42,491 nt of DNA from an uncultured Bacteroidales bacterium (GTDB lineage: Bacteria > Bacteroidota > Bacteroidia > Bacteroidales > F082). The notes below the pieces were generated by a model that did not search any database, was not told the origin of the DNA, and saw only the letters and a list, made by a program, of their open reading frames with translations. Below, piece after piece: positions 4,906 through 42,491 of this stretch; positions within the stretch are counted from its first letter, which is position 1, and every line of letters begins with the position of its first letter. Made by a program: the position numbers and the translations under genes. The DNA is taken from NCBI GenBank assembly GCA_900318465.1, contig ONKQ01000020.1:1-42491 (forward strand). The letters are read 5' to 3'.

Positions 4906-5646
4906 ATGCTCAAATACGACTCGTATTACTTCCAATGTCCGCATTGCCAAGCTTGGCTCGAAGGTCGCAACCTGAAGGCCGAGATGGTCAACCAGTCTAT
5001 CTTGTATTCTGACGGTAAAGTGCTGAACGACAACCTTATCACCACACCACAGAAGATGCTGATGTGCCCTTCGTGCAGCCATGTCTTTTGGATTGAAAAG
5101 CCTGTCGAGCCGCTCATCACTTTCGAGAAACCCGAGGCAGAAATCTATTCGTGGAACACGTGGCGATTCTTTGGCATCAGCTTCTCCGACAACAAGGGCA
5201 AGCTGGCCCTCATCAACCACTACAAGACTTTCCTGAAGAAAAGCCACTACGACCCCAAGAAGGAGATTTACCTGCGGCGTTTCCTGTGGTGGGCCTACAA
5301 CGACCTGCATCGCAACCACCAGCATGTGCGCCTGAAATACTTGCTCAATGGGTTCATGAGTTTCGGTGTGTGGCACGAAAACCGCAAGATGATACTCGGT
5401 GGCGAGAAGCTTTTCATCAAGAATATCAAGGACTTCAACGACAATCTGAAACGCCTTTTGGCTTTGTTGGAAAAACATCCCGAAGAGCAGATTGACCTTG
5501 AGGTGCCGGAGATTTACCGCGAGTTGCGCCAGTTCGACAAGGCCAAGGAACTGCTCGACCAAGTGGGCAGCCGCACCCATTTCACCAACGAAATGCTGCG
5601 TCACTCCAAATGGAAGGACTCACGGGTCTTCATGGTTTCAGGCTAA
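4906..5646 (+). CDS. Zinc-ribbon protein of unknown function
   Basis: A 246-residue cytosolic protein without signal peptide. It begins with a likely zinc ribbon formed by CPHC (residues 11-14) and CPSC (54-57). The middle is rich in aromatic and charged residues. The C-terminal half (EEQIDLEVPEIYRELRQF, then KAKELLDQV) looks alpha-helical and TPR-like. I do not recognise the family. It lies 50 bp after rnhA on the same strand and ends 4 bp from the convergent PdxA-like gene, so it could be co-transcribed with rnhA. Confidence 0.75.
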   Translation: MLKYDSYYFQCPHCQAWLEGRNLKAEMVNQSILYSDGKVLNDNLITTPQKMLMCPSCSHVFWIEKPVEPLITFEKPEAEIYSWNTWRFFGISFSDNKGKLALINHYKTFLKKSHYDPKKEIYLRRFLWWAYNDLHRNHQHVRLKYLLNGFMSFGVWHENRKMILGGEKLFIKNIKDFNDNLKRLLALLEKHPEEQIDLEVPEIYRELRQFDKAKELLDQVGSRTHFTNEMLRHSKWKDSRVFMVSG

Positions 5647-5650
5647 AGCA

Positions 5651-6685
5651 TCACTCAGACGATTTCTCTTTTGAGGGCAAAACCTCAGAATCTTTCCGTT
5701 GGTGGACAATATCCATTGCGAGATAAATGGCCTTGCGCAACGGGTCGGGCGAGGCTTGGTTGGTGTTGGCAATGTCGAATCCCGGACCGTGCAAAGGCGC
5801 AGTGCAAACCGCCGAAAGTCCAGCCCAATAGCAAGCGCCTCCGTTGACCGACAGCAACTTGAACGGCATGACACCCTGCTCGTATGTCATGGCCAAAACC
5901 GCATCGTATTTCTTCCAAGCCCCATTTACGAAAATGCGACCGGGCGAGAACGGCCCAAAGGCATAAACGCCCCGTTTCTGGGCTTCCTTGATGGCAGGTG
6001 TCACACAATCGTTATCCGTGGCGCTGCCCAACTCGCCCGCATGAGGATTGAGACCCATCACGGCAATCTTGGGCGCATTGAGGCCGAAATCGGTCTTCAA
6101 AGCCTTCGACAGAACCTCCAACTTGCGAACCACAAGCGCGGTATCTATCTTTTCGACGGCCTCCCGCAAAGGAACGTCATCGGTGACCAAACCGACACGC
6201 ATGAAGTCGCTTACCAACACCCGAAGTATATCAGGATTGTTGAAAACAGCGGCAAAAACTTGAGCTTGTTTCGTGTCCACAGCAAGGCTCGACGGTGTTG
6301 TCACAAGAGCGTCAAGGTGCTCGTTGCGCAAGTCCTCAATGCCCATCTTCAGCGACAACTTCGACATTTCGACAGAGACCTGCGTGGATTGCCCAGGCTC
6401 AATCTTCAACTCGCCATCAACAATGTTGATGATGTTGAATTTCTGCGCCCAAGCTTGTCGCACGTCGCGAGTGAGCGAGTAGTTGAAATCCTCGATTTCG
6501 AAGTTCTTTTTGTAGTACGACAACACCTTCGACTGACCGTAGAGCACGGGCGTCAGCAGAGTTAAGATACGTGCATCGGCAAAGGCTTTAAGGATGGTTT
6601 CATACGAGATGCCGTTAATGTCGCCGTGGGTCAAGCCCAAGCGTGGGGTCTGTAAGGATTGAGGTTTGTCTTGCATAGTTGCCAT
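5651..6685 (-). CDS. Divergent PdxA-like protein (4-hydroxythreonine-4-phosphate dehydrogenase family)
   Basis: About 344 residues, clearly PdxA-like: LTHGDINGISYETILK at the N-terminus, VMGLNPHAGELG in the middle and LHGPGFDIA near the end. PdxA oxidises 4-phosphohydroxy-L-threonine in vitamin B6 synthesis and binds a divalent metal through three histidines. Here only the NPHAGE histidine is kept. The TTHxPL histidine is Asp (TDDVPL) and the YHDQG histidine is Tyr (TYEQG). The usual GHTE segment and the active-site DHGTA are also altered. The start at 6685 (MATMQDK) is the first ATG after a promoter-like element; ATG 6676 is the alternative. It may be a changed-function or inactive paralogue. 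Confidence 0.75.
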   Translation of the reverse strand: MATMQDKPQSLQTPRLGLTHGDINGISYETILKAFADARILTLLTPVLYGQSKVLSYYKKNFEIEDFNYSLTRDVRQAWAQKFNIINIVDGELKIEPGQSTQVSVEMSKLSLKMGIEDLRNEHLDALVTTPSSLAVDTKQAQVFAAVFNNPDILRVLVSDFMRVGLVTDDVPLREAVEKIDTALVVRKLEVLSKALKTDFGLNAPKIAVMGLNPHAGELGSATDNDCVTPAIKEAQKRGVYAFGPFSPGRIFVNGAWKKYDAVLAMTYEQGVMPFKLLSVNGGACYWAGLSAVCTAPLHGPGFDIANTNQASPDPLRKAIYLAMDIVHQRKDSEVLPSKEKSSE

Positions 6686-6721
6686 TTTTATCGGACTGAA
6701 ATTCAACGTGAAATCAGCCCT

Positions 6722-6751
6722 CAAAATTAGACAATAAAATTAAACAAACAA
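6722..6751 (-). promoter_or_regulatory. minus-strand promoter of the PdxA-like gene
   Basis: On the minus strand TTG (6751-6749) and TAATTTTG (6729-6722) are 19 nt apart. This would give the PdxA-like gene its own transcript even though the Kdo transferase gene lies just upstream on the same strand. Confidence 0.5.
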
Positions 6752-6755
6752 CACT

Positions 6756-8030
6756 TCAAGCCTTTTTTTGCAAAAAAAGGATATTTTTGAAGCCTTCCAT
6801 GATCTTTTCGGTGGCTCCAACCTGCTGCTCCAAATAGGTTTTGCACGTCGCTGACGCCTTGTTGAAAAACGCCTCATCGTTCATCAAACGGCTGAAAATA
6901 TCCTCCAATCCGGCAGCATCGTTGACAGAAAACGCGCCTTGCATGGCCACCAAATCCACAGCTTCCTTGAAACTGCCGTATTTCGGCCCAAACACCACGG
7001 GACAGCCAAAAGTGACAGGCTCCTGAATGTTGTGGATATTGACGCCGAAGCCACCGCCGATGTAGACAAACCGCGCATATTGGTAGAGTTGCGAAAGGAT
7101 CCCAATCGTGTCAACAATCAGTATTTTCGTTGGTTGATTGGCATTGATACCCGTATAACGCTGCGCCTCGGGGAACATGGCCTCGATTTGTGCGACATGA
7201 CTTTCCGAGACATCGTGCGGCGCAATGACAAGACAATAATCGACGGGAAGTTTCGGCACAAAAGCCTCAAGCAGTTTCTCGTCGGGCGGCCATGTGCTTC
7301 CAGCGATGATACATTTCCGACCGCCGATAAACTTTTCGACTTCGGGGAAAGGTCGGGCTTGTTTTGCAATGGCTGCCACACGGTCGAAACGGGTGTCGCC
7401 GCACACGGTATAGTTGTCGAAGCCATTCTCTTTCAGCAAGGTAGCGGTCGTCTCGTCCTGCACAAAGAAATGCGTCACATTGAGCAACTGCTTGCGGAAC
7501 CAATTGCCATACGACTTGAAGAAATACGACTTTTCATCGAATATCAACGAGATATAGAATAACGGAATGTCCGCATTTTTCAAGGCTCGCATATAGTTGA
7601 ACCAAAACTCGTACTTGATGAAGAAAGCAGCCACAAAATGATGCCGATGCAACCATTTTTTGGCATGGAAGGCGGTGTCGGAAGGCAGATACAGCACCTC
7701 GTCGGCCAAGGGATAGTCCTTGCGCACCTCGTAGCCCGAAGGCGAGAAAAACGACAGCAAAATCTTGAATTGCGGATAATCCTTCTTGATGGCTTCGATG
7801 ACAGGTCTCCCCTGCTCAAACTCGCCCAACGAGGCAGCATGAAACCAAATCCAGTCGCCGTCGGTCGCAGGCACGTTGCCCTTGTGTCTGCCCAAAAGTT
7901 TATCTATGATTTTCAGCTCTTTGCGTTGCTTTCGCCGACCTTCCACCCATTGCTTGGCCTTGGCATTGCCGAAAAAGGCCGCCACGCGCACACCCAAAGC
8001 ATAAAGCAAGACCCCAAGAGTAAAAAGCAT
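6756..8030 (-). CDS. waaA: 3-deoxy-D-manno-octulosonic acid (Kdo) transferase
   Basis: A 424-residue GT-B glycosyltransferase that adds Kdo to lipid A precursor at the inner membrane. Visible are the N-terminal membrane anchor (MLFTLGVLLYALGVRVAAFF), FHAASLGEFEQGRPVI with the catalytic Glu, SFFSPSGYE, IIAGSTWPPDEKLL, YIGGGFG and the acidic nucleotide-binding region before FGPKYGSF. Length matches the family. The frame opens at a TTG at 8036, but the ATG at 8030 gives the better N-terminus. It starts 9 nt after the stop of the upstream beta-barrel gene, so the two form an operon. Confidence 0.93.
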   Translation of the reverse strand: MLFTLGVLLYALGVRVAAFFGNAKAKQWVEGRRKQRKELKIIDKLLGRHKGNVPATDGDWIWFHAASLGEFEQGRPVIEAIKKDYPQFKILLSFFSPSGYEVRKDYPLADEVLYLPSDTAFHAKKWLHRHHFVAAFFIKYEFWFNYMRALKNADIPLFYISLIFDEKSYFFKSYGNWFRKQLLNVTHFFVQDETTATLLKENGFDNYTVCGDTRFDRVAAIAKQARPFPEVEKFIGGRKCIIAGSTWPPDEKLLEAFVPKLPVDYCLVIAPHDVSESHVAQIEAMFPEAQRYTGINANQPTKILIVDTIGILSQLYQYARFVYIGGGFGVNIHNIQEPVTFGCPVVFGPKYGSFKEAVDLVAMQGAFSVNDAAGLEDIFSRLMNDEAFFNKASATCKTYLEQQVGATEKIMEGFKNILFLQKKA

Positions 8031-8948: not shown

Positions 8949-11900
8949 TTACTGCTTGACGACCTTTCGGACGATGGTCATGTCGCCCTTCAGGATGCGT
9001 AGCATGTAGACACCGTTTTCAAGCCCATCAATTTGCACAGCGTGGCCTTCCACCTTCAGGCTGCGGATGAGCTTGCCTTCCATATTGTAAACGTCGATTT
9101 GATTCATGCCGACACATTCGACTTTGACCTTGTCGGTGGTCGGATTGGGATAGATGCTCACCAGTCCGTCACTTTCCGTCAAGCCGTTGAAATAGTTGGC
9201 GCAAGCGGCCTCGGAAAGGTCGGAAACACCCTTCTCGAACACCGACTGCACGGCGTAGCAATGCTCAGCATCGATGGCCATTTCGGTGTCTTTGTAATTG
9301 GTTTCCGTCAGGTTTTCGGCAATCAGTTCGCCATCGCGGTAAAGGTTGTAAGAGATGGCCCCATCAACCGTATTCCATTCCGTGGTGATATATCCTTCAT
9401 GCACATCGGAGATGCGGATTTCGGGAACAATGTTGGTGACCTCGAACCAAAAGTCCGTCATCAAGCCCACGCAATCTTCATATACGGGTTCCACCAAAAT
9501 ATGGTGTTCTCCTCCTTCTTCCAACGGGATGCTGAAACCATTGGTTTCTACAAAAGTTGGAGAATCAATGAAATCACCCCTGACGATGTAGGTATCGGCA
9601 TCGCCATTCCAAGTCACCGTGACCACATTGCCGATAAAGGAATAATCATAGCCATCAACGGCACAAACTTCCGTTGACAAACATACAGGCTCAGAATCAC
9701 AGCCATAGAGAGAATGTGTTATCACACAGATTGTATTTTCGCCCACAATCGGGTCGAATGAGAATTCTGTAGCACCACCTTGAGGCTCAACCAGCGTGGT
9801 ATCGCCATTATAAATCACTTCGTAATTATGGACATAGGGGTCGTCGCAACTCCAAGTGAAATGCAAACCGCTGTAATCCATTGCAACAAACGACAAATCC
9901 GAAACGGGATCAACTATACAAATGTCAAAGCCAGCCAAGAACCTATAGCATCCGTCCTCGACAGGCCCCACCATAACTTCAAATATCCCCGAAGGAAGCT
10001 CTACTGAATAAGAGGAATCTTCTACTGTCGCAACAAGCACCTGATTGATGTACACATCATACTGGCTCACGTATTCAAGAGCATCCCAAGTCAAATCAAC
10101 AACGTGGTCATTCAGGGCATAATTGAGATTCTCCACCCTTCCAAGGATACATATATTCGTTTGGTTATCCTTGTCACAATCCTCAAAAACGGATTTGACA
10201 ATGACACCGTGATAGCCCACTGTTGTGTTAAAATAGTAAATCAACTCGTTGGTAGCCCCAAGTAGTTCGTCATCCACATAGACTTGATACTCAACAAGTC
10301 CTGTTGGATTTTCTGGGGCTTCCCAAGTGAGGATGATTTGAATATTTTCATCATTGGTAAGTAGAGCGTGTCGCAAGTTCTGCACAGGGCCGCACTTCGA
10401 CACATCCACCTCGGTGCAGACATACTCGCTTTGGCAGCCGTCGTAGGCGGCATAGACACAATAATTGTAAACGCCCTCATCCACATTGACATCGGTGTAA
10501 GTAAGGCCCTCAACCAAGTCAAGGAGTTCGGTCTCGCGATAGATTTCATACCATGCAGGCGTACCGTTTTGAGGCGCTTCCCATGTGAGGACTACATCCA
10601 AGCCATTCAGTTCATAATCCAAATTCCGGATTGGCTCGCAAAAACCTGGACCACTGCTGCCCATGTTGCAATCTATGGTGAAAACTTTGTTGCCGCTAAA
10701 ACCGCCTTGGTTCTCAAAGATGACCGTACCATCCTCGTAAGTAACCTCAAAGCTGCACTGCGAAGCCCCTTGGTCGCTGTGCCATCGAAGCATGAATCTG
10801 GAGCCAGAACTCAGACTGCGGATATAAGTCGCGGAACTGCCTTCGTCGATGGTCAATTGCTCCGAAGTCATTCCGTCGGAATAGTTCACTGTGATATAGT
10901 TGCCCTGCCAGCCATTGCCATTGGAATCGTGCAACGAGAAGATGATGTTGCAAGCGTTTTTGTAGCTGAAAGTCAACTCTGTTTGCCGTCCGTTGAAGTC
11001 CACAAGGTCGAGGGTGAAAGGAATGACGAAATCCTCAGGAGCATCAGCAGCAAGTGTGACATTGAAATCGGCATAACCCATCATATCGGCACCAATTGCG
11101 CTGAAACTCTTTTCTGTATCATTCACCGCAACAAACTCATACTCTGACGACAAGGTACCCATCACCATTTCGGCCAATTGGTTGCCCGTATTGTCAACAA
11201 AGATGCGCAAATCGGCAGTCTCGCCCGGTTCGAGGAGGCCGTTGCCGTTGTCGTCGTTCAACACAACGGATGTGCCAAATTCCAATCGGGAATCATAAAC
11301 CGTAACAGCCAAGCCATAAGTTCCCGACTGTTCGCCATCGACATACACTTCCAAATTGAAACGGATGTCCTGCTTGGCTACCACATTGTCGCTGACTGTG
11401 AAAGCGAAAGCATCTTCCACCATCATGGTTTCGTCAGGCGCGAAATCTGGACAAGTGGCTGTGTTTTGGGTAATGGTAACGTTTTCATCCCAAGTCGTCA
11501 AAACCAAGGAAACATTGCTCACAGGTTCCGAACTTATATTCACCATAGCAACACCCATCGTGACCGACTCGCCCGGATTCAAAACGTTGTTATTGTTGCC
11601 TTCAGGGTCATGGATTTGATAACTGAGGTTGTACTGGATGGCACCCACTTGGATGGCTTCCACAGCGGCAAGGACATTAATGCGGCCAAAGCCGTAGGTG
11701 TTGCTCTTGCCTTGGGCCAAGGGCACCGCCGTTTCTTCAAGGATTCGACAAATGTCGGCAGGCATCAGATTGGGGTCTTTGCTCAGCATCAAAGCGATGC
11801 AACCCGCCGCACAAGGCGTGGCCATCGAAGTGCCACTCATGGTGGTATAGCCATTATTGCCTTGATAGTCCAACGACTTGATGTTCACGCCAGGGGCGCA

Positions 11901-13112
11901 CACATCGGGGCGGATGAGACCTATTCCGGGTTGGTAGGGATAGTCGCCAAACTCGGTATTCGTCCAGGTAACGGGGCCACGCGAGCTGAAATTGGCGGCA
12001 TTGTCGTTCCCATCAACCGCACCGATGCAAATTGAGCAACTCAGGTCACCGGGATTCTCGCCCTGCACGGCATCCATGTAAGGCGGAGGACAACTGCCAG
12101 GCACGCGCACGTTGTTCGGAATGGGATATTGCCATTGGGTGTTGCCTTCGTTGCCGGCAGCAATGGCACCCGCAATGCCCAAATCCAAGGAAGCCACGCA
12201 AGTACGGCGCAGCAAAGTCCTTTCCGGCACAGTGGAACTGGCCACGCCGAGCGACATGCTGAACACATCGCAGCCGTGCTCCACTGCCCATTCCATGCCG
12301 GCGGCAATCACTTCGGCACCTCCATTGCCGTTGGAATTGATGCACTTGACGCACATCAGCGTGGCATCAGGAGCCATGCCCGTCTGAGAGCCTGCCTTGC
12401 CATTGCCCAGCACCGTGCCGGCACAGTGCGAGCCGTGGCCGTGGTCGTCCATTGGGTTGTTGTCGTTGTTATACACATCGTAACCGTGGAGCGGGAACTC
12501 ATCGCCGCCGTCCCAGAGGTGGTCGACCACATCCAAGTGGTTGTAGTTGACGCCCGTATCCACAACGGCCACCACAACGCCTTGGCCCGTGTAGCCCAAG
12601 GTCCACACTTGGTTGGCCCCCACTTGGAGGACATTCTGCGTGATTTCGCGCGTAGCGGAAGCCGGACGAGGTGTTTCGTCCTCTGGTAACCAGCAACGCT
12701 CGATGGCGTAGCCGATGATTTCAATGTCGTTGCGGCGGGCGAGGTCTTGAATGGCAGACTTGGTGGCCAAGCACGTCAAAGAGTTCGACATCCACAAGGT
12801 GGTTGGCTCGGTCACCATGCCGTTGCGTTCCATCTCGGCCAGCGAGCGTTTCAGGTCGTACTGTGAGGCAGCCGCAAATTCCTTCAACTCATGCGTAAGG
12901 AAGTCGCGACGCTCGGCGCGGGATACGAAGTAGTCGGCGCGGCTGCACAGCTGTGCTCGGTCGTATTGCGCCTTCATAATAACGATGACCTTCATCTGCT
13001 CGTCGTCGCCACGACGGGCCATTTCCTCGGCCAGCAGCGGGTCGATGGTGCTTTGGGCAAAGCCGAAAAGCGCACCCAAAACCAACAAAAGAGTGAATAA
13101 TGATTTTTTCAT
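8949..13112 (-). CDS. Secreted subtilisin-like serine peptidase (S8) with T9SS sorting domain
   Basis: A 1387-residue cell-surface or secreted peptidase. A signal peptide (residues 1-19, ending GFAQ) is followed by a propeptide-like segment to about 160. The S8 catalytic triad is complete: D185 (VVDTGVNY), H226 (HGHGSH) and S429 (SGTSMATP), with N321 (AAGNEG) for the oxyanion hole. Residues 490-750 look like beta-sandwich modules, and about 840-1300 contain repeated fibronectin-III-like units (VxLTWEAP). The last 75 residues form a T9SS type A sorting domain (VSIYPNPTTDKVKV to KVVKQ). A minus-strand -7 element (TACATTTG, 13148-13141) lies upstream. The substrate is unknown; degradation of host or dietary protein is a reasonable guess. 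Confidence 0.93.
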   Translation of the reverse strand: MKKSLFTLLLVLGALFGFAQSTIDPLLAEEMARRGDDEQMKVIVIMKAQYDRAQLCSRADYFVSRAERRDFLTHELKEFAAASQYDLKRSLAEMERNGMVTEPTTLWMSNSLTCLATKSAIQDLARRNDIEIIGYAIERCWLPEDETPRPASATREITQNVLQVGANQVWTLGYTGQGVVVAVVDTGVNYNHLDVVDHLWDGGDEFPLHGYDVYNNDNNPMDDHGHGSHCAGTVLGNGKAGSQTGMAPDATLMCVKCINSNGNGGAEVIAAGMEWAVEHGCDVFSMSLGVASSTVPERTLLRRTCVASLDLGIAGAIAAGNEGNTQWQYPIPNNVRVPGSCPPPYMDAVQGENPGDLSCSICIGAVDGNDNAANFSSRGPVTWTNTEFGDYPYQPGIGLIRPDVCAPGVNIKSLDYQGNNGYTTMSGTSMATPCAAGCIALMLSKDPNLMPADICRILEETAVPLAQGKSNTYGFGRINVLAAVEAIQVGAIQYNLSYQIHDPEGNNNNVLNPGESVTMGVAMVNISSEPVSNVSLVLTTWDENVTITQNTATCPDFAPDETMMVEDAFAFTVSDNVVAKQDIRFNLEVYVDGEQSGTYGLAVTVYDSRLEFGTSVVLNDDNGNGLLEPGETADLRIFVDNTGNQLAEMVMGTLSSEYEFVAVNDTEKSFSAIGADMMGYADFNVTLAADAPEDFVIPFTLDLVDFNGRQTELTFSYKNACNIIFSLHDSNGNGWQGNYITVNYSDGMTSEQLTIDEGSSATYIRSLSSGSRFMLRWHSDQGASQCSFEVTYEDGTVIFENQGGFSGNKVFTIDCNMGSSGPGFCEPIRNLDYELNGLDVVLTWEAPQNGTPAWYEIYRETELLDLVEGLTYTDVNVDEGVYNYCVYAAYDGCQSEYVCTEVDVSKCGPVQNLRHALLTNDENIQIILTWEAPENPTGLVEYQVYVDDELLGATNELIYYFNTTVGYHGVIVKSVFEDCDKDNQTNICILGRVENLNYALNDHVVDLTWDALEYVSQYDVYINQVLVATVEDSSYSVELPSGIFEVMVGPVEDGCYRFLAGFDICIVDPVSDLSFVAMDYSGLHFTWSCDDPYVHNYEVIYNGDTTLVEPQGGATEFSFDPIVGENTICVITHSLYGCDSEPVCLSTEVCAVDGYDYSFIGNVVTVTWNGDADTYIVRGDFIDSPTFVETNGFSIPLEEGGEHHILVEPVYEDCVGLMTDFWFEVTNIVPEIRISDVHEGYITTEWNTVDGAISYNLYRDGELIAENLTETNYKDTEMAIDAEHCYAVQSVFEKGVSDLSEAACANYFNGLTESDGLVSIYPNPTTDKVKVECVGMNQIDVYNMEGKLIRSLKVEGHAVQIDGLENGVYMLRILKGDMTIVRKVVKQ

Positions 13113-36633: not shown

Positions 36634-38280
36634 ATGCATCCAAACATGACCATCGACGACATCCAACGGCTGATACAAAACGACGAGACCCGAACCTTGG
36701 AACTGAAAAAGACCACGGGCGAGTTGAAAGACGGAATGCGTTCCGCCTGCGCCTTGCTCAATACTTCGGGAGGTTGGGTGTTGTTTGGAGTTGCGCCTGG
36801 CACCCTGCATATTATTGGGCAACAAGTTACCGAAAGCACCCGAAGGGAAATTGCCCACGAACTCACCAAACTTGAGCCATCCATCGACCTCCCCGTGGAA
36901 TATGTCGATATTCCTGGCCGCGAAGGGTTTCAAGTCATTGCCATACGTTTGGACGGAGCCTCTTTTGGTGAGATGCCCTATACCTACGATGGGAAACCCT
37001 ATTTGCGCGTGGAAAGCACGACGATTGTCATGCCTCGCGACATTTTTGAGGAAAGGTTGATGCGAAGCAGGCTGAAGCACTATCCGTGGGAAGGTCAAAT
37101 CTGCGAAGACATCACCATTGCAGATTTGGACGAGCAACGCATTAGAGGGTCGGTGCGTCTTGGTGTGGAACGCGGAAGAATGCCCGCCACATCGCTCACC
37201 GACACGACAGAGCGGCTCGTAGAGGAGTTGAAACTTACAAAAAAAGGACAGTTGAAGAATGCCGCCGCCGCGTTGTTTTTGCGCGACACGAGGGATTTTC
37301 CCCAGTTTCTGTTGCGAATGGCTCGTTTCCGTGGAACGGACAAGATGGAGTTCATCGACAACCAACGGGCATACGGCAACTTTTTCGATTTGTTGGATGC
37401 TGGCATGGCTTTCTTCTTCAAGCATTTGTCGTTAAGCGGCAAGATTGTGGGCTTCATGAGAGAGGAGAAACTGGAGATTCCTGCCGTTGCCCTTCGCGAA
37501 GCACTGACCAACGCGCTCTGCCACAGGCAATTTCATAGTCCAAGTGGCTCTGTCGGCATTGCCATCTATGACGACCGTGTAGAGATTGAGAACACCGGCC
37601 ATCTACCTGAAGAATTGACGGTGGAAACCATAAAAACCAACCATCAATCATTTGCACAGAACCCACTCATAGCTGATATTTTGTTCAAGACTACTTTCCT
37701 GGAAAATTGGGGCAGTGGTGTGAGCCGCATGATGGAAGCCTGCGTGGAAGCAGGTTTGCCCGAGCCCAAATACGGAACAAACGGATTGTTCGTTTGGATT
37801 ACATTTTATCGTACAACCTCAAAACCGTACAACCTCGAAAACCGTACAACCTCAGAAAACATACAACCTCGAAAGCATACAACCTCGAAAACACACAACC
37901 TCGAAAACACACAACTTCAAGAACATACGACCCCACAACCCCATAACCCCCAAACCCCACAACCTCAAAACCCCACAACCTCAAAACCCCACAACCTCAA
38001 AACCCCACAACCTCAAAACCCCACAACCTCCAACAAAAAAGCAAGACGCATAAAGGCTCTTCTTTCCATCATTGGAGATAAGGGAGCGAATTTGAAGACT
38101 TTAATGGAGGGTTTGAGACTTCGTGACAGAAAAAACTTACTATACACTTATATCAATCCAAATGTTGAGGAAGGCAATATCGCCATGCTTTATCCCGAAA
38201 AGCCCAACCACCCGATGCAGTCATACTATCTGACACAAAAAGGCAGGGAATTGCTTGAAAAACTATCGAAAGAAGAATAA
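36634..38280 (+). CDS. AlbA_2-type regulator with ATPase-like domain, repeat linker and C-terminal winged helix
   Basis: A 548-residue protein. Residues 1-130 form an AlbA_2 (Schlafen-type, DNA-binding) domain: LELKKTTGELKDGMRSACAL and NTSGGWVLFGVA. Residues 283-385 match the HATPase_c_4-like region of the 'RecG-related transcriptional regulator' group (LREALTNALCHRQF, IENTGHLPEEL, WGSGVSRM). Residues 393-466 are a low-complexity Asn/Pro/Thr/His linker encoded by a 16-bp tandem repeat. Residues 469-545 look like a winged helix (LKTLMEGLRLRDRKNLL, then YYLTQKGRELL). Such proteins are widespread, sometimes in defence or phage loci; the role here is unknown. ATG 36646 is an alternative start. 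Confidence 0.85.
   Translation: MHPNMTIDDIQRLIQNDETRTLELKKTTGELKDGMRSACALLNTSGGWVLFGVAPGTLHIIGQQVTESTRREIAHELTKLEPSIDLPVEYVDIPGREGFQVIAIRLDGASFGEMPYTYDGKPYLRVESTTIVMPRDIFEERLMRSRLKHYPWEGQICEDITIADLDEQRIRGSVRLGVERGRMPATSLTDTTERLVEELKLTKKGQLKNAAAALFLRDTRDFPQFLLRMARFRGTDKMEFIDNQRAYGNFFDLLDAGMAFFFKHLSLSGKIVGFMREEKLEIPAVALREALTNALCHRQFHSPSGSVGIAIYDDRVEIENTGHLPEELTVETIKTNHQSFAQNPLIADILFKTTFLENWGSGVSRMMEACVEAGLPEPKYGTNGLFVWITFYRTTSKPYNLENRTTSENIQPRKHTTSKTHNLENTQLQEHTTPQPHNPQTPQPQNPTTSKPHNLKTPQPQNPTTSNKKARRIKALLSIIGDKGANLKTLMEGLRLRDRKNLLYTYINPNVEEGNIAMLYPEKPNHPMQSYYLTQKGRELLEKLSKEE
37810..38030 (+). repeat. 16-bp tandem array in the linker of the AlbA_2 regulator
   Basis: About fourteen units with consensus CCACAACCTCAAAACC. 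Early units carry GTAC or ATAC instead of CCAC and two are 17 bp; the last full units (four in a row) are identical. Because 16 is not a multiple of 3, three units are needed to return to phase, giving a 16-residue protein period (QPQNPTTSKPHNLKTP). Confidence 0.9.
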
Positions 38281-39655: not shown

Positions 39656-40035
39656 TGGAGTACGACAACTTGAAAGGACTCCGACACAGCGAAACGCTCG
39701 TGGTGGAGCATAAGGACACCGCCGCCGTTTATGGTTCGGGCGCGTTGGAGGTTTTTGCCACTCCCGCCATGATTGCCCTGATGGAGAAAACTTGTTTGGA
39801 AGCCGTAGCCGACAAAATCGGCGAAGGCAACACCACTGTGGGCATTGCGGTGAATATCAAGCACTTGAAAGCCAGCCCTGTTGGTGCGACCATCCGCTGC
39901 GAGGCTGAACTCGTTGAAGTGGACCGCCGCCGTTTGGTCTTTGAAATGAAGTGCTTCGAAGGCGAGACCTTGGTCGGTGAAGGCATCCACGAAAGGTTTG
40001 TCGTTGACAGCCAAAAGTTTATGAGTAAATTCTAG
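39655..40035 (+). CDS. Hot-dog thioesterase (FlK-like)
   Basis: A 126-residue single-domain hot-dog protein. The central helix motif ATPAMIALMEKTC and the strand GIAVNIKHLKASPVG resemble the fluoroacetyl-CoA thioesterase (FlK) family, in which Thr/Ser, Glu and His act together; T36, E44 and H70 are the candidates here. In gut bacteria the natural substrate is unlikely to be fluoroacetyl-CoA, so a general acyl-CoA thioesterase is the safer call. The start at 39655 overlaps the osmC stop by one base. Confidence 0.87.
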   Translation: MEYDNLKGLRHSETLVVEHKDTAAVYGSGALEVFATPAMIALMEKTCLEAVADKIGEGNTTVGIAVNIKHLKASPVGATIRCEAELVEVDRRRLVFEMKCFEGETLVGEGIHERFVVDSQKFMSKF

Positions 40036-40064
40036 AATCTGAAAGTTTGATATAAATGTAAAAT

Positions 40065-40160
40065 AGCTATCAGCTATCAGCTATCAGCTATCAGCTATCA
40101 GCTATCAGCTTGGCAATGAGCGGCTGAAAGCTGATTGCTGAATGCTGAAAGCCAATAAAT
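40065..40160. repeat. AGCTATC heptamer array and facing arm
   Basis: AGCTATC is repeated 6.6 times (40065-40110), followed by a facing arm of GCTGAAA/GCTGATT/GCTGAAT units to about 40153. The whole can fold into a hairpin of the same type as the TTAGC inner hairpin at 22491-22552. It lies in the gap between the thioesterase and TSCPD genes. Confidence 0.85.
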
Positions 40161-40166
40161 AATCCA

Positions 40167-40415
40167 ATGAAATACACCTACCGAACCCAAGGCACGTGCA
40201 GTCAGGCCATCGAGTTTGAAATTGAGGACGGCAACGTGAAGAACGTGCAGTTCTACGGCGGCTGCAACGGCAACACTCAGGGTGTCGCCACCCTCGTGGA
40301 AGGCATGAAGGCAGAGGATGTCGTCGCCAAGTTGGAAGGCATCCGCTGCGGCTTCAAAGGCACTTCCTGCCCCGACCAATTGGCCAAGGCTATCCGACAA
40401 GCGATGGAGAGTTGA
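40167..40415 (+). CDS. TSCPD-domain protein (TIGR03905 type)
   Basis: An 82-residue protein. It carries the conserved features GTCSQAIEFEIEDG, FYGGCNGNTQG, IRCG and TSCPDQLAKAI, with four cysteines. The TSCPD domain also occurs at the C-terminus of some class II ribonucleotide reductases; stand-alone forms are common in Bacteroidetes and Firmicutes and have no settled function. The stop codon lies inside a GTTGA(A/G)A heptamer repeat. Confidence 0.9.
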   Translation: MKYTYRTQGTCSQAIEFEIEDGNVKNVQFYGGCNGNTQGVATLVEGMKAEDVVAKLEGIRCGFKGTSCPDQLAKAIRQAMES

Positions 40416-40434
40416 AAGTTGAGAGTTGAGAGTT
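40407..40434. repeat. GTTGA(A/G)A heptamer repeat overlapping a stop codon
   Basis: Three units (40411-40431) and part of a fourth. The TGA of the TSCPD gene (40413-40415) is in the first unit. The same heptamer is repeated at 41889-41929 inside the T9SS gene. Confidence 0.8.
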
Positions 40435-40550
40435 ATCAGTTGTTTGGTTGGAATGGAAGGTCTGGCACAAGTTTTGATGAAAAAATGGCTGTTTACGCAA
40501 TTTCAAAAGCACTACATCGTTATTGTCAATTGAAACAACACTAAAAAATC

Positions 40551-41660
40551 ATGAATATGAAGAAAAACATCGTCACGCTGTCAGCCTTGGCACTCGTTGT
40601 CATGCTGACGACATTCAGCGGCTGCAAGAAAGTCCAGCCCAAAGACAACACACCTGCTCCTGAAGGACTTTATTTGGGCATTGTAGGATTCAACAACGAA
40701 CTTCACACCATGCCGTTGGGCCTGCTCAACCAGAACACGAAGCACAATTTCGAAAACTTCGTCGACAACCTCGCCATGCAAAACGGCACCATTCTTTACC
40801 ATGCCGTCAACACGAGCCTCAACAGCCTGTCTAACGCCAAAGTACCGGAAAACCTCATCAACGTATCGGTGGTGACCTTTACCGATGGCCTCGACCAAGG
40901 CTCCTACATCCTCTCAAATTACAATTCGGGTAGCGAATACCTTGCAGCGGTCAACTCGCGCATCAACAACGACCTCATCGGCGGCAACAACATCGCTGCC
41001 TATTCCATCGGTGTGCGCGGCTCCGACGTGGCCGACATCGATAGCTTCCGCAACAACCTCAACAAACTTTCCAGCGACCCCGAGCACAACGTCTTTGAAG
41101 TGAGCAACATCAACGAGGCCTCCGAAAAGTTTGCCGAAATCGCGCAGCAGCTTTACAACCAAAGCACATTCTACAACGTCACGCTGAAGCTGCCGGCACA
41201 GGAACCCAACACCAAAATCCGCTTCACTTTCGACAACGTGAACGAAGCCGACGATTCTGAATGCTACATCGAAGGCACCTACATCCGCACCAACGGCAAG
41301 GGACAACTTACTCAAATCCAGTACGTTGGATTGGAGAGCATTTCTGGTGCCAGCGTCACGGCCACCTCAGAGAACATCTTCGACGTGTTTGCCTTCAAGA
41401 ACCTGACCGACACCCAAGGCAACCAGATTTCAACCGACTATGTGAAACAATGGAACTGGGTGGAATCGACTCAACAATGGCAATACAACAGCGAGTTCAC
41501 GCCGGCGGGCAACACTGAAATCGTCGACGAATACAAGAGTGCGATGATCATGCTCGTGCTCGACTGCTCCAGCTCGTTGGGCAACGACTTCACCACCATG
41601 AAGACCGCCGCAAATGGCTTCATCGAAACCCTGAGCGGCAACTACAACGGAAGACGATAA
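40551..41660 (+). CDS. Lipoprotein with apparently circularly permuted von Willebrand A domain
   Basis: A 369-residue lipoprotein with lipobox FSGC (Cys25); ATG 40557 is an alternative start. A von Willebrand A domain normally begins with the DxSxS metal motif. Here the chain starts with the second strand (LYLGIVGFNNELHTM), has T80 (NGTILYHAV) and D112 (VVTFTDG), and the DxSxS motif is near the very end (D338-C-S340-S-S342, in MLVLDCSSSLGNDF). All MIDAS residues are therefore present but in permuted order. Residues 205-320 look like an inserted beta domain. It probably lies on the outer membrane or surface and may bind ligand in a metal-dependent way. No signal beyond its start codon decides regulation. 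Confidence 0.8.
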   Translation: MNMKKNIVTLSALALVVMLTTFSGCKKVQPKDNTPAPEGLYLGIVGFNNELHTMPLGLLNQNTKHNFENFVDNLAMQNGTILYHAVNTSLNSLSNAKVPENLINVSVVTFTDGLDQGSYILSNYNSGSEYLAAVNSRINNDLIGGNNIAAYSIGVRGSDVADIDSFRNNLNKLSSDPEHNVFEVSNINEASEKFAEIAQQLYNQSTFYNVTLKLPAQEPNTKIRFTFDNVNEADDSECYIEGTYIRTNGKGQLTQIQYVGLESISGASVTATSENIFDVFAFKNLTDTQGNQISTDYVKQWNWVESTQQWQYNSEFTPAGNTEIVDEYKSAMIMLVLDCSSSLGNDFTTMKTAANGFIETLSGNYNGRR

Positions 41661-41681
41661 GCATTGCAGAACAACAACATG

Positions 41682-41716
41682 AAAACGGTGCCCGATGGAT
41701 TCGAGCACCGTTTTTC
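41682..41716. terminator. bidirectional intrinsic terminator
   Basis: A perfect 10-bp stem, AAAACGGTGC with GCACCGTTTT, with a 13-nt loop and a T-run on the plus side. It ends the vWA gene and, through the A-run on the left, could also stop the minus-strand gene. Confidence 0.85.
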
Positions 41717-41770
41717 TTTGCCATTCTCGCGGTAGCGATAGCGGGGCATGCCTCGGCAGCGCGGTAGCCG

Positions 41771-41792
41771 ACAACGGGGCATGCCCCGTTGT
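41771..41792. repeat. 22-bp perfect palindrome
   Basis: Half-site ACAACGGGGCA, perfectly self-complementary. A related GGGGCATGCC lies 37 bp upstream at 41743. The stretch 41720-41815 between the two convergent genes consists mainly of such GC-rich repeats. Confidence 0.7.
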
Positions 41793-41815
41793 TGGCAAAG
41801 CCCAGCATAGTCCTA

Positions 41816-42415
41816 TCAGTCAACCACAATCTTCTGTGTCCTGACGGAATCGCCGCCCACCAAACGCAACACATACACTCCCGGGACAAAGTTGAAAGTT
41901 GAAAGTTGAGAGTTGAAAGTTGAGAGTTCTTTTCTCACTAATTCTTTGCCGAGAATGTCAATGATTTGGAGGGTTCCCGTGCCGTTGATGATGATGTTGC
42001 CGTTGTTGATGTAGGCAAACGGTGCATCGGACGCTGAGCCTGTCGAAGCGTCGTTGGCATTGAACACCAAGCGGAAACGGCTGGCGTAGTCGGTGGTCTT
42101 GGCGGTGAAGGTGTAAACTCCCCCTTGCCCCCTCTCAGAGGGGGAATTGCCTGCCGGGGTCAGAAGGTCAATGTCTGCGCCGGTCATGTTATCGATGAGG
42201 TGCAGGTAGTCCAAATCCATGTTTTCAACGTTCACGGTCAGGGTGTAGGTGCCGTTCTTGGCGGCCTTGAAGTTGATGGGTTGTTCTGTGCGGCTGGATT
42301 GCTTCGCTTCGCTCGCAATGACCGCGACAGCCCAATCCTGTGCGTCCTCGGTGGCATAAATGCGTGTGCTGTTCTCGTTCAGCGTGAATTTCTGGGCTAG
42401 TGGACAAAAATTAGG
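41816..42415 (-). CDS. T9SS-sorted surface protein, broken at its 5' end
   Basis: The frame is open from 42415 to the stop at 41816, 199 codons, with an in-frame TAG at 42416-42418 just upstream and no ATG start. The only usual start is a GTG at 42235, but clearly protein-like sequence continues upstream of it (KFTLNENSTRIYATEDAQDW, then INFKAAKNGTYTLTVNVEN). The C-terminus is a T9SS sorting domain (LQIIDILGKELVRKEL, then GVYVLRLVGGDSVRTQKIV). Four different repeat elements are translated in frame (IASEAKQSS, SPSERGQGG, DASTGSAS and LSTFNSQLSTFN). The 5' part was probably lost to an insertion or rearrangement near 42400. Confidence 0.65.
   Translation of the reverse strand, partial: PNFCPLAQKFTLNENSTRIYATEDAQDWAVAVIASEAKQSSRTEQPINFKAAKNGTYTLTVNVENMDLDYLHLIDNMTGADIDLLTPAGNSPSERGQGGVYTFTAKTTDYASRFRLVFNANDASTGSASDAPFAYINNGNIIINGTGTLQIIDILGKELVRKELSTFNSQLSTFNFVPGVYVLRLVGGDSVRTQKIVVD
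41889..41929. repeat. GTTGA(A/G)A heptamer array in the T9SS domain
   Basis: Five heptamers and part of a sixth. On the minus strand they encode LSTFNSQLSTFN within the sorting domain, in the orientation that avoids the TGA of the other strand. Confidence 0.85.
42030..42052. repeat. GCTTCGACAGGCTCAGC element in frame
   Basis: A 6-bp inverted repeat (GACGCT with AGCGTC) around GAGCCTGTCGA. I recall this sequence as a common short palindromic repeat in Bacteroidetes. It encodes DASTGSAS. Confidence 0.6.
42129..42145. repeat. CCCCCTCT-C-AGAGGGGG palindrome, in frame, copy 3
   Basis: A 17-bp variant of the palindromes at 22772 and 23031, extended by CCCCCTTG on the left. On the minus strand it encodes SPSERGQGG. 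Confidence 0.75.
42296..42322. repeat. GGATTGCTTCGCTTCGCTCG repeat in frame
   Basis: GGATTGCTTCGCTTCGCTCG followed by CAATGAC. The ends GGATTG and CAATGA are inverted. On the minus strand it encodes IASEAKQSS, a phrase I recall from many unrelated Bacteroidetes proteins. Confidence 0.7.
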
Positions 42416-42491
42416 CTAAAATCTTTGTGGAGTTCAGAAATAACAGGTGTTGAGGAGCGTTCAAAGGTTATGAACAAAAAAAGTGCATTCA
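42398..42491. other. unexplained right-edge segment, possible insertion boundary
   Basis: At about 42400 the coding character of the T9SS gene stops and AT-rich sequence begins (TAGTGGACAAAAATTAGGCT). An ATG at 42470 on the plus strand may begin a gene that leaves the window. Insertion-sequence ends often look like this, but I cannot name an element. Confidence 0.3.

Follow-up and report, generated by a model that had tools for sequence, protein, structure and literature searches.

The protein P0001 is the 369-residue translation of an open reading frame (ORF) at 40551-41660 on the + strand of contig ONKQ01000020.1 (assembly GCA_900318465.1), from an uncultured Bacteroidales bacterium. The whole analysed stretch of 42,491 nucleotides is referred to as the window. 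P0001 is very probably an envelope lipoprotein that arose from a circularly permuted module of a von Willebrand factor A (vWA) domain and an Ig-like beta-sandwich, most simply once within Bacteroidales. In this reading the sandwich is now nested in the vWA domain, and the C-terminal strand 1 and helix 1 most likely restore the metal ion-dependent adhesion site (MIDAS) of the same chain. Judged from the sequences, the vWA domain has truly been circularly permuted, an unpermuted relative is encoded in the same genome, and no description of such a case was found in the open-access literature.

Rotated order of the vWA landmarks

The vWA landmarks were located on the translation of P0001. T80 and D112 come first and D338 follows, instead of the ordinary order DxSxS, T, D. 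The initial annotation had listed T80, D112, D338, S340 and S342 as a complete set of metal-site residues in rotated order, and each was found at its place. It had also described a beta insertion of about 115 residues; the insertion is present, and its length is about 120 residues (207-325).

The Pfam VWA profile (PF00092) matched residues 36-191 from profile position 34 onwards (34-169; E = 2.8e-9, 37.9 bits, cut-off 23.8). Pfam VWA_2 covered residues 333-364 with its positions 1-38 at 18.4 bits, under its cut-off of 27. Since the start of the VWA_2 profile matches residues 333-364, the start of the domain sits at the C-terminus of P0001. With the superfamily profile (PF00092) and the MIDAS residues (DxSxS, T and D) both present, P0001 is, by its sequence, a permuted relative of the vWA superfamily and not an ordinary member. 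An NCBIfam scan of P0001 gave one match only, far under the cut-off, and a PDB sequence search returned only ribosomal protein S3 (E = 0.27 and 0.3).

The same order was present in all 15 orthologues from other assemblies (63-83% identity), and their ends differ by a few residues at most. Two paralogues in the genome of P0001 (42-43% identity) share the permuted order and end. Because 15/15 relatives and both paralogues agree, the order in P0001 is not due to chance.

Canonical relatives and circular permutation

Profile A2, derived from 11 permuted proteins, was run over all fetched frames and matched 85 of them. Among these, 56 displayed the whole permuted order, 20 the canonical order with the parts swapped, one (L125) was a short sandwich-less frame carrying the two vWA pieces in permuted order, and 7 + 1 were single-part matches. 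In the canonical frames, the last part of the profile (from 222-294 on) was matched ahead of its first part. L032, L074-L077, L129 and L131 matched the strand 2-helix 7 part alone, and L129 the other part alone; the matches in L129 and L131 represent fragments of canonical genes whose frames are interrupted.

Canonical-order Bacteroidales homologues, including L004, L078 and L120, hold the same two domains as P0001. L004 is encoded in the same genome (532 residues from its ATG) and matched the query as two pieces in opposite order. In BLASTP against L120, residues 40-228 of P0001 corresponded to 171-370 (5e-18, 31% identity) and residues 232-362 to 28-163 (5e-16, 40% identity). When permuted proteins were cut at the joint and their halves exchanged, they aligned end to end with canonical proteins. 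Rotation of P0001 turned its two Pfam pieces into one match over profile positions 2-169 of 174, at 49.7 bits compared to 37.9. Rotated L114 passed the VWA_2 cut-off with 31.2 bits, compared to no match of native L114 at E 0.001; native L003 and L093 gave no Pfam match at E 0.1. The circular permutation proposed at first from the landmarks is therefore supported by canonical-order homologues: both halves of P0001 align with them in exchanged positions, the old ends being joined and new ends made.

The initial annotation had named a second complete vWA domain in homologues as a sign of simple truncation or of a dimer of half-domains. No second DxSxS strand was found in the 56 permuted frames: 53 carried one DxSxS motif, and three carried none by the strict pattern. 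Simple truncation is excluded by this result, by the absence of a vWA domain from the seven C-terminal extensions scanned, and by the swapped canonical homologues. A chance motif and a tandem array were likewise rejected on the orthologues, the canonical relatives and the motif scan. A tandem-duplicated intermediate, which is expected but not required, was not found, as none of the 56 permuted and 20 canonical frames has two DxSxS motifs; whole genomes were not searched for adjacent copies.

Most canonical frames (16/20) are 499-627 residues long, with a further C-terminal region that is barrel-like by eye. L092, L123 and L124 are canonical proteins of 345-357 residues with lipoprotein-like starts, and L131 is a fragment.

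Conservation and structural models

The equivalents of T80, D112, D338 and S342 were invariant in 54/54 permuted frames, and position 340 was S in 42 and T in 12. L093 and L107 were omitted from this count because of poor profile fit; both keep T, D and DxSxS by eye. The mean ratio of nonsynonymous to synonymous polymorphism (pN/pS), calculated from 12 of the 15 orthologues, was 0.127 for strand 1/helix 1, 0.153 for the rest of the vWA domain, and 0.266 for the sandwich. Strand 1/helix 1 is the most constrained part of the gene, and the two separated vWA parts are held alike.

The structure models were of low confidence. They predicted a strand and a helix for the C-terminal segment and a sandwich block with a predicted local distance difference test score (pLDDT) of 76-93 over residues 211-310. 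Model residues 15-177 (P0001 40-202) aligned with integrin I domains. Residues 330-365 most likely pack on residues 38-200 in the same chain, as suggested by homology, short links in sandwich-less relatives and co-conservation.

Proposed exchange of host and guest domains

In the canonical relatives the sandwich is split around a complete vWA domain, whereas P0001 has an uninterrupted sandwich with the two parts of the vWA domain on either side of it. Both inter-domain links (sandwich to strand 1 and helix 7 to sandwich) are the same in the two forms. The permuted form differs in its ends, which lie in the helix 1-strand 2 loop of the vWA domain instead of in the sandwich.

We propose that the parent form, still represented in the genome of P0001 by L004, consisted of a sandwich half, a complete vWA domain and a second sandwich half. 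Fusion of the old ends would have made the sandwich continuous, and a break in the helix 1-strand 2 loop would have opened the vWA domain. Host and guest would have been exchanged in this way, with the sandwich inserted in the vWA domain and both links kept. The C-terminal strand 1 and helix 1 would then complete the vWA sheet of the same chain and restore the MIDAS (D338, S340, S342, T80 and D112), which may bind Mg2+ and a protein or glycan ligand.

P0001 starts with a hydrophobic stretch followed by C25, which is invariant in 16/16 sequences; this lipoprotein assignment was made by eye, with the lipobox pattern as generally known. In the known vWA topology the MIDAS and the helix 1-strand 2 loop are on opposite sides, so that with a lipid anchor at this loop the metal site would face outwards. 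The N-terminal lipid and, in 13/56 frames, C-terminal extras would thus attach to the vWA face opposite the MIDAS and not to the sandwich.

The permuted frames end at most 20 residues past helix 1 in 43/56 cases, and the other 13 carry 192-806 more residues. Pfam was run on seven of these 13, and no vWA domain was found in the extensions. Five had modules above cut-off, all unrelated to vWA: sulfatase-modifying-factor-type (L117), Big_2 (L118), fn3-like (L116), a divergent InlB B-repeat (L090), and DUF5689 with DUF6359 (L091). The extensions of L022 and L098 had no Pfam module above cut-off. Because modules of this type are frequent in surface proteins, an adhesin-like role is proposed. From its sequence features, P0001 is a probable MIDAS-dependent binder on the envelope.

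Divergent and sandwich-less relatives

In L032 and L074-L077, the order is permuted and the sandwich is absent, with a strand 1-like stretch directly after helix 7. These frames (L074:733-2856, L075:755-2953, L076:708-2924, L077:493-2184 (-) and L032:1-2187 (-)) have altered MIDAS positions and large C-terminal regions. In these sandwich-less relatives the permuted fold may persist even where metal binding is lost.

L125 (1366-2286, - strand), on the same contig as L114, is a bare permuted vWA domain of 307 residues with DCSGS intact, in which about 10 residues connect helix 7 to strand 1. L093 (22-1227, - strand), L107 and L134-L137 form a very divergent branch of permuted lipoproteins with 19-20% identity to P0001.

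Alternative explanations

The C-terminal strand 1/helix 1 of one chain may complete the vWA domain of a second chain, giving a domain-swapped dimer. Sequence and homology fit the same-chain and swapped forms alike, and the sandwich, placed between helix 7 and strand 1, could swing outwards as on a hinge. However, the six sandwich-less relatives join helix 7 to strand 1 by about 5-12 residues by eye, which suits the adjacent old termini of a single vWA domain, and the covalent sandwich-vWA links are the same as in the canonical relatives. We regard the swapped dimer as unlikely.

Slightly less likely still is a permuted scaffold that no longer acts as a receptor, with the MIDAS residues as relics. 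The altered MIDAS motifs of L032 and L074-L077 would agree with such a loss. Against it, the full-length permuted frames keep T, D, D, S/T and S throughout, at identities to P0001 down to 34%.

The assembly is a draft of 132 contigs and canonical relatives exist, but an artefact, whether by truncation, by misassembly or by excision from an array of ordinary vWA units in tandem, is refuted by the orthologues and has a negligible probability: the same gene and ends occur at 15/15 loci of other assemblies, a TSCPD gene lies upstream in 11/15, and the permuted frames hold no second DxSxS.

Distribution and history

Matches to A2 were found in 65 of 173 genomes of the window's family. Full-length permuted matches occurred in 52 of these, all of the window's genus, at 77 places, as counted from the profile-search table; part of these sequences was fetched. 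The divergent branch (L093/L134, L135, L136 and L107/L137) was present in 4/173 family genomes, one of them of a second genus. G370, also matched in that search, holds a canonical protein. At the order level, 13/295 genomes matched, and six of these, from five families, hold the permuted form. In the class sample, 5/395 genomes matched: the window's own genome and G021 (same order) with permuted proteins, and three with ordinary vWA proteins. The proteins L140-L142, from the class outside the order and touched by the profile, were rejected as permuted forms, as their order is canonical by eye. In the phylum sample, 1/395 genomes matched, which was the window's own.

A tree was made from 51 rotated rows, comprising 34 of the 56 permuted and 17 of the 20 canonical frames. 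Near-copies, the fragment L131 and the six sandwich-less frames were omitted, L093 and L107 were rotated by hand, and L092, L123 and L124 served as the root. All 34 permuted rows fell on one side of a single branch (94/90, not starred). The tree needs one change of order, and 0/500 shuffles were as low. The simplest reading of these sequences is that the permutation arose in one event. Canonical order is taken as ancestral, being the order of both the outgroup rows and the general Pfam models. The origin would have followed the usual route, a tandem duplication and then loss of the outer parts.

Significance of the permuted form

Few ligand-binding domains are as widespread as vWA, and in integrins its activation is accounted for by shifts of helices 7 and 1 with respect to the MIDAS. 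A permutant whose new ends lie between helix 1 and strand 2, encoded alongside the unpermuted parent form in one genome, offers a ready natural experiment on which chain links the fold and its allostery require and on what a shift of the tether does. P0001 also illustrates how permutation of a nested two-domain protein can swap host and guest. Profile searches give such proteins as a broken VWA match or miss them, and they are therefore easily filed as truncated.

On balance, we lean towards regarding P0001 as the first natural circularly permuted vWA (I/A) domain. A single Bacteroidales event would have inverted host and guest, kept a working MIDAS, and shifted both the tether and the fused modules onto the vWA domain, away from the sandwich. 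A family of many architectures would have followed, including the bare permuted vWA by loss of the sandwich.

Genomic context and feature map

The gene of P0001 is preceded by deoC, OsmC, an FlK-type thioesterase and a TSCPD gene. TSCPD is upstream in 11/15 orthologue loci; L013 and L019 have other neighbours, and L011 and L017 cover only 39 and 332 bases upstream. The downstream ORF 41819-42235 (- strand) gave a weak match, under cut-off, to a type IX secretion system (T9SS) sorting tail. None of the neighbours points to a ligand. At the orthologue locus L006, the corresponding downstream place on the opposite strand (5181-7730 (-)) is taken by a gene for a BspA-type leucine-rich repeat protein.

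An inverted repeat starts about 20 bases past the stop (41660), with a T run behind it on the + strand. The scan found 2 terminator-type sites compared to a shuffle mean of 2.1, and listed this repeat on the - strand. Completeness of the gene rests on the orthologues. One promoter-like site was found at 40523-40552, no more than shuffles give, and an Rfam search of 40000-42491 gave no match.

Elsewhere in the window, 36634-38280 encodes an AlbA_2/recG-type ATPase-like regulator whose ATPase-like and C-terminal domains are separated by a long repeat stretch rich in Pro, Thr, Asn and His. A 1387-residue subtilase-family protein with a T9SS sorting tail is encoded at 8949-13112 (-).

Table 1. Features of the P0001 gene and their positions in the window
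Feature	Coordinates	Strand	Evidence
Signal peptide with lipobox, residues 1-25; Cys25 predicted lipidation site	40551..40625	+	C25 invariant in alignment A1 (16/16); lipobox by eye
Tether linker, residues 26-38	40626..40664	+	Variable among orthologues; longer and Gly/Asn-rich in paralogues
vWA strand 2 to helix 7, residues 39-206	40665..41168	+	Pfam VWA 36-191; model likeness to integrin I domains
MIDAS Thr80	40788..40790	+	T in 54/54 counted permuted frames
MIDAS Asp112 (TFTDGLD)	40884..40886	+	D in 54/54 counted permuted frames
Beta-sandwich half standing after vWA in canonical relatives, residues 207-228	41169..41234	+	BLASTP to L120; alignment
Joint fusing old C- and N-termini, about residues 229-236	41235..41258	+	BLASTP swap point 228/232; cut-and-swap alignment
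Beta-sandwich half standing before vWA in canonical relatives, residues 237-325	41259..41525	+	Alignment; BLASTP to L120; block pLDDT 76-93 (211-310)
vWA strand 1 and helix 1, residues 326-364	41526..41642	+	Pfam VWA_2 333-364, under cut-off; low-confidence strand/helix prediction
MIDAS D338-x-S340-x-S342 (DCSSS)	41562..41576	+	D338 and S342 in 54/54; 340 is S in 42/54, T in 12/54
Inverted repeat 3' of stop, possible terminator	41682..41714	+	T run read on + strand; scan lists - strand

Comparison with known systems

A permuted vWA domain was not found described in the open-access literature, subscription papers being mostly outside the search. None appeared in the accessible portions of PMC2430557, PMC7824862, PMC8195603, PMC9278004, PMC12067865, PMC9503650, PMC4822843, PMC12419801, PMC7911831 and PMC5126661, nor was one mentioned in those of PMC8277102. 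Profile A2 matched no PDB chain at E up to 1.

P0001 resembles canonical vWA domains (PF00092/PF13519; integrin I domains) in the five MIDAS residues, the succession of elements once rotated and a significant Pfam match. Unlike them, it starts at strand 2, ends with strand 1/helix 1, and has the sandwich between helix 7 and strand 1. The canonical Bacteroidales homologues have the same two domains, but with the vWA domain complete and inside the sandwich.

Natural circular permutation is described for the cpRAS GTPase, whose attached vWA domain is not called permuted in the available text (PMC2430557), and for the cpCone lipocones, where available sections report a duplicated intermediate (PMC12419801). 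As far as these texts cover them, both are whole-domain permutations like P0001, but of other folds. In the available part of PMC7835359, Mfa5 of Porphyromonas gingivalis has a MIDAS vWA domain inserted between strands of its Ig-like domain D2 and is compared with RrgA and GBS104. P0001 resembles Mfa5, as described there, in having a MIDAS vWA domain joined at two places to an Ig-like sandwich. The vWA-inside-sandwich arrangement of the Mfa5/RrgA type is found in the canonical relatives and not in P0001. Mfa5 has this canonical nesting together with an isopeptide bond and T9SS export, according to the same portion of the source, and the nesting in P0001 is the inverse.
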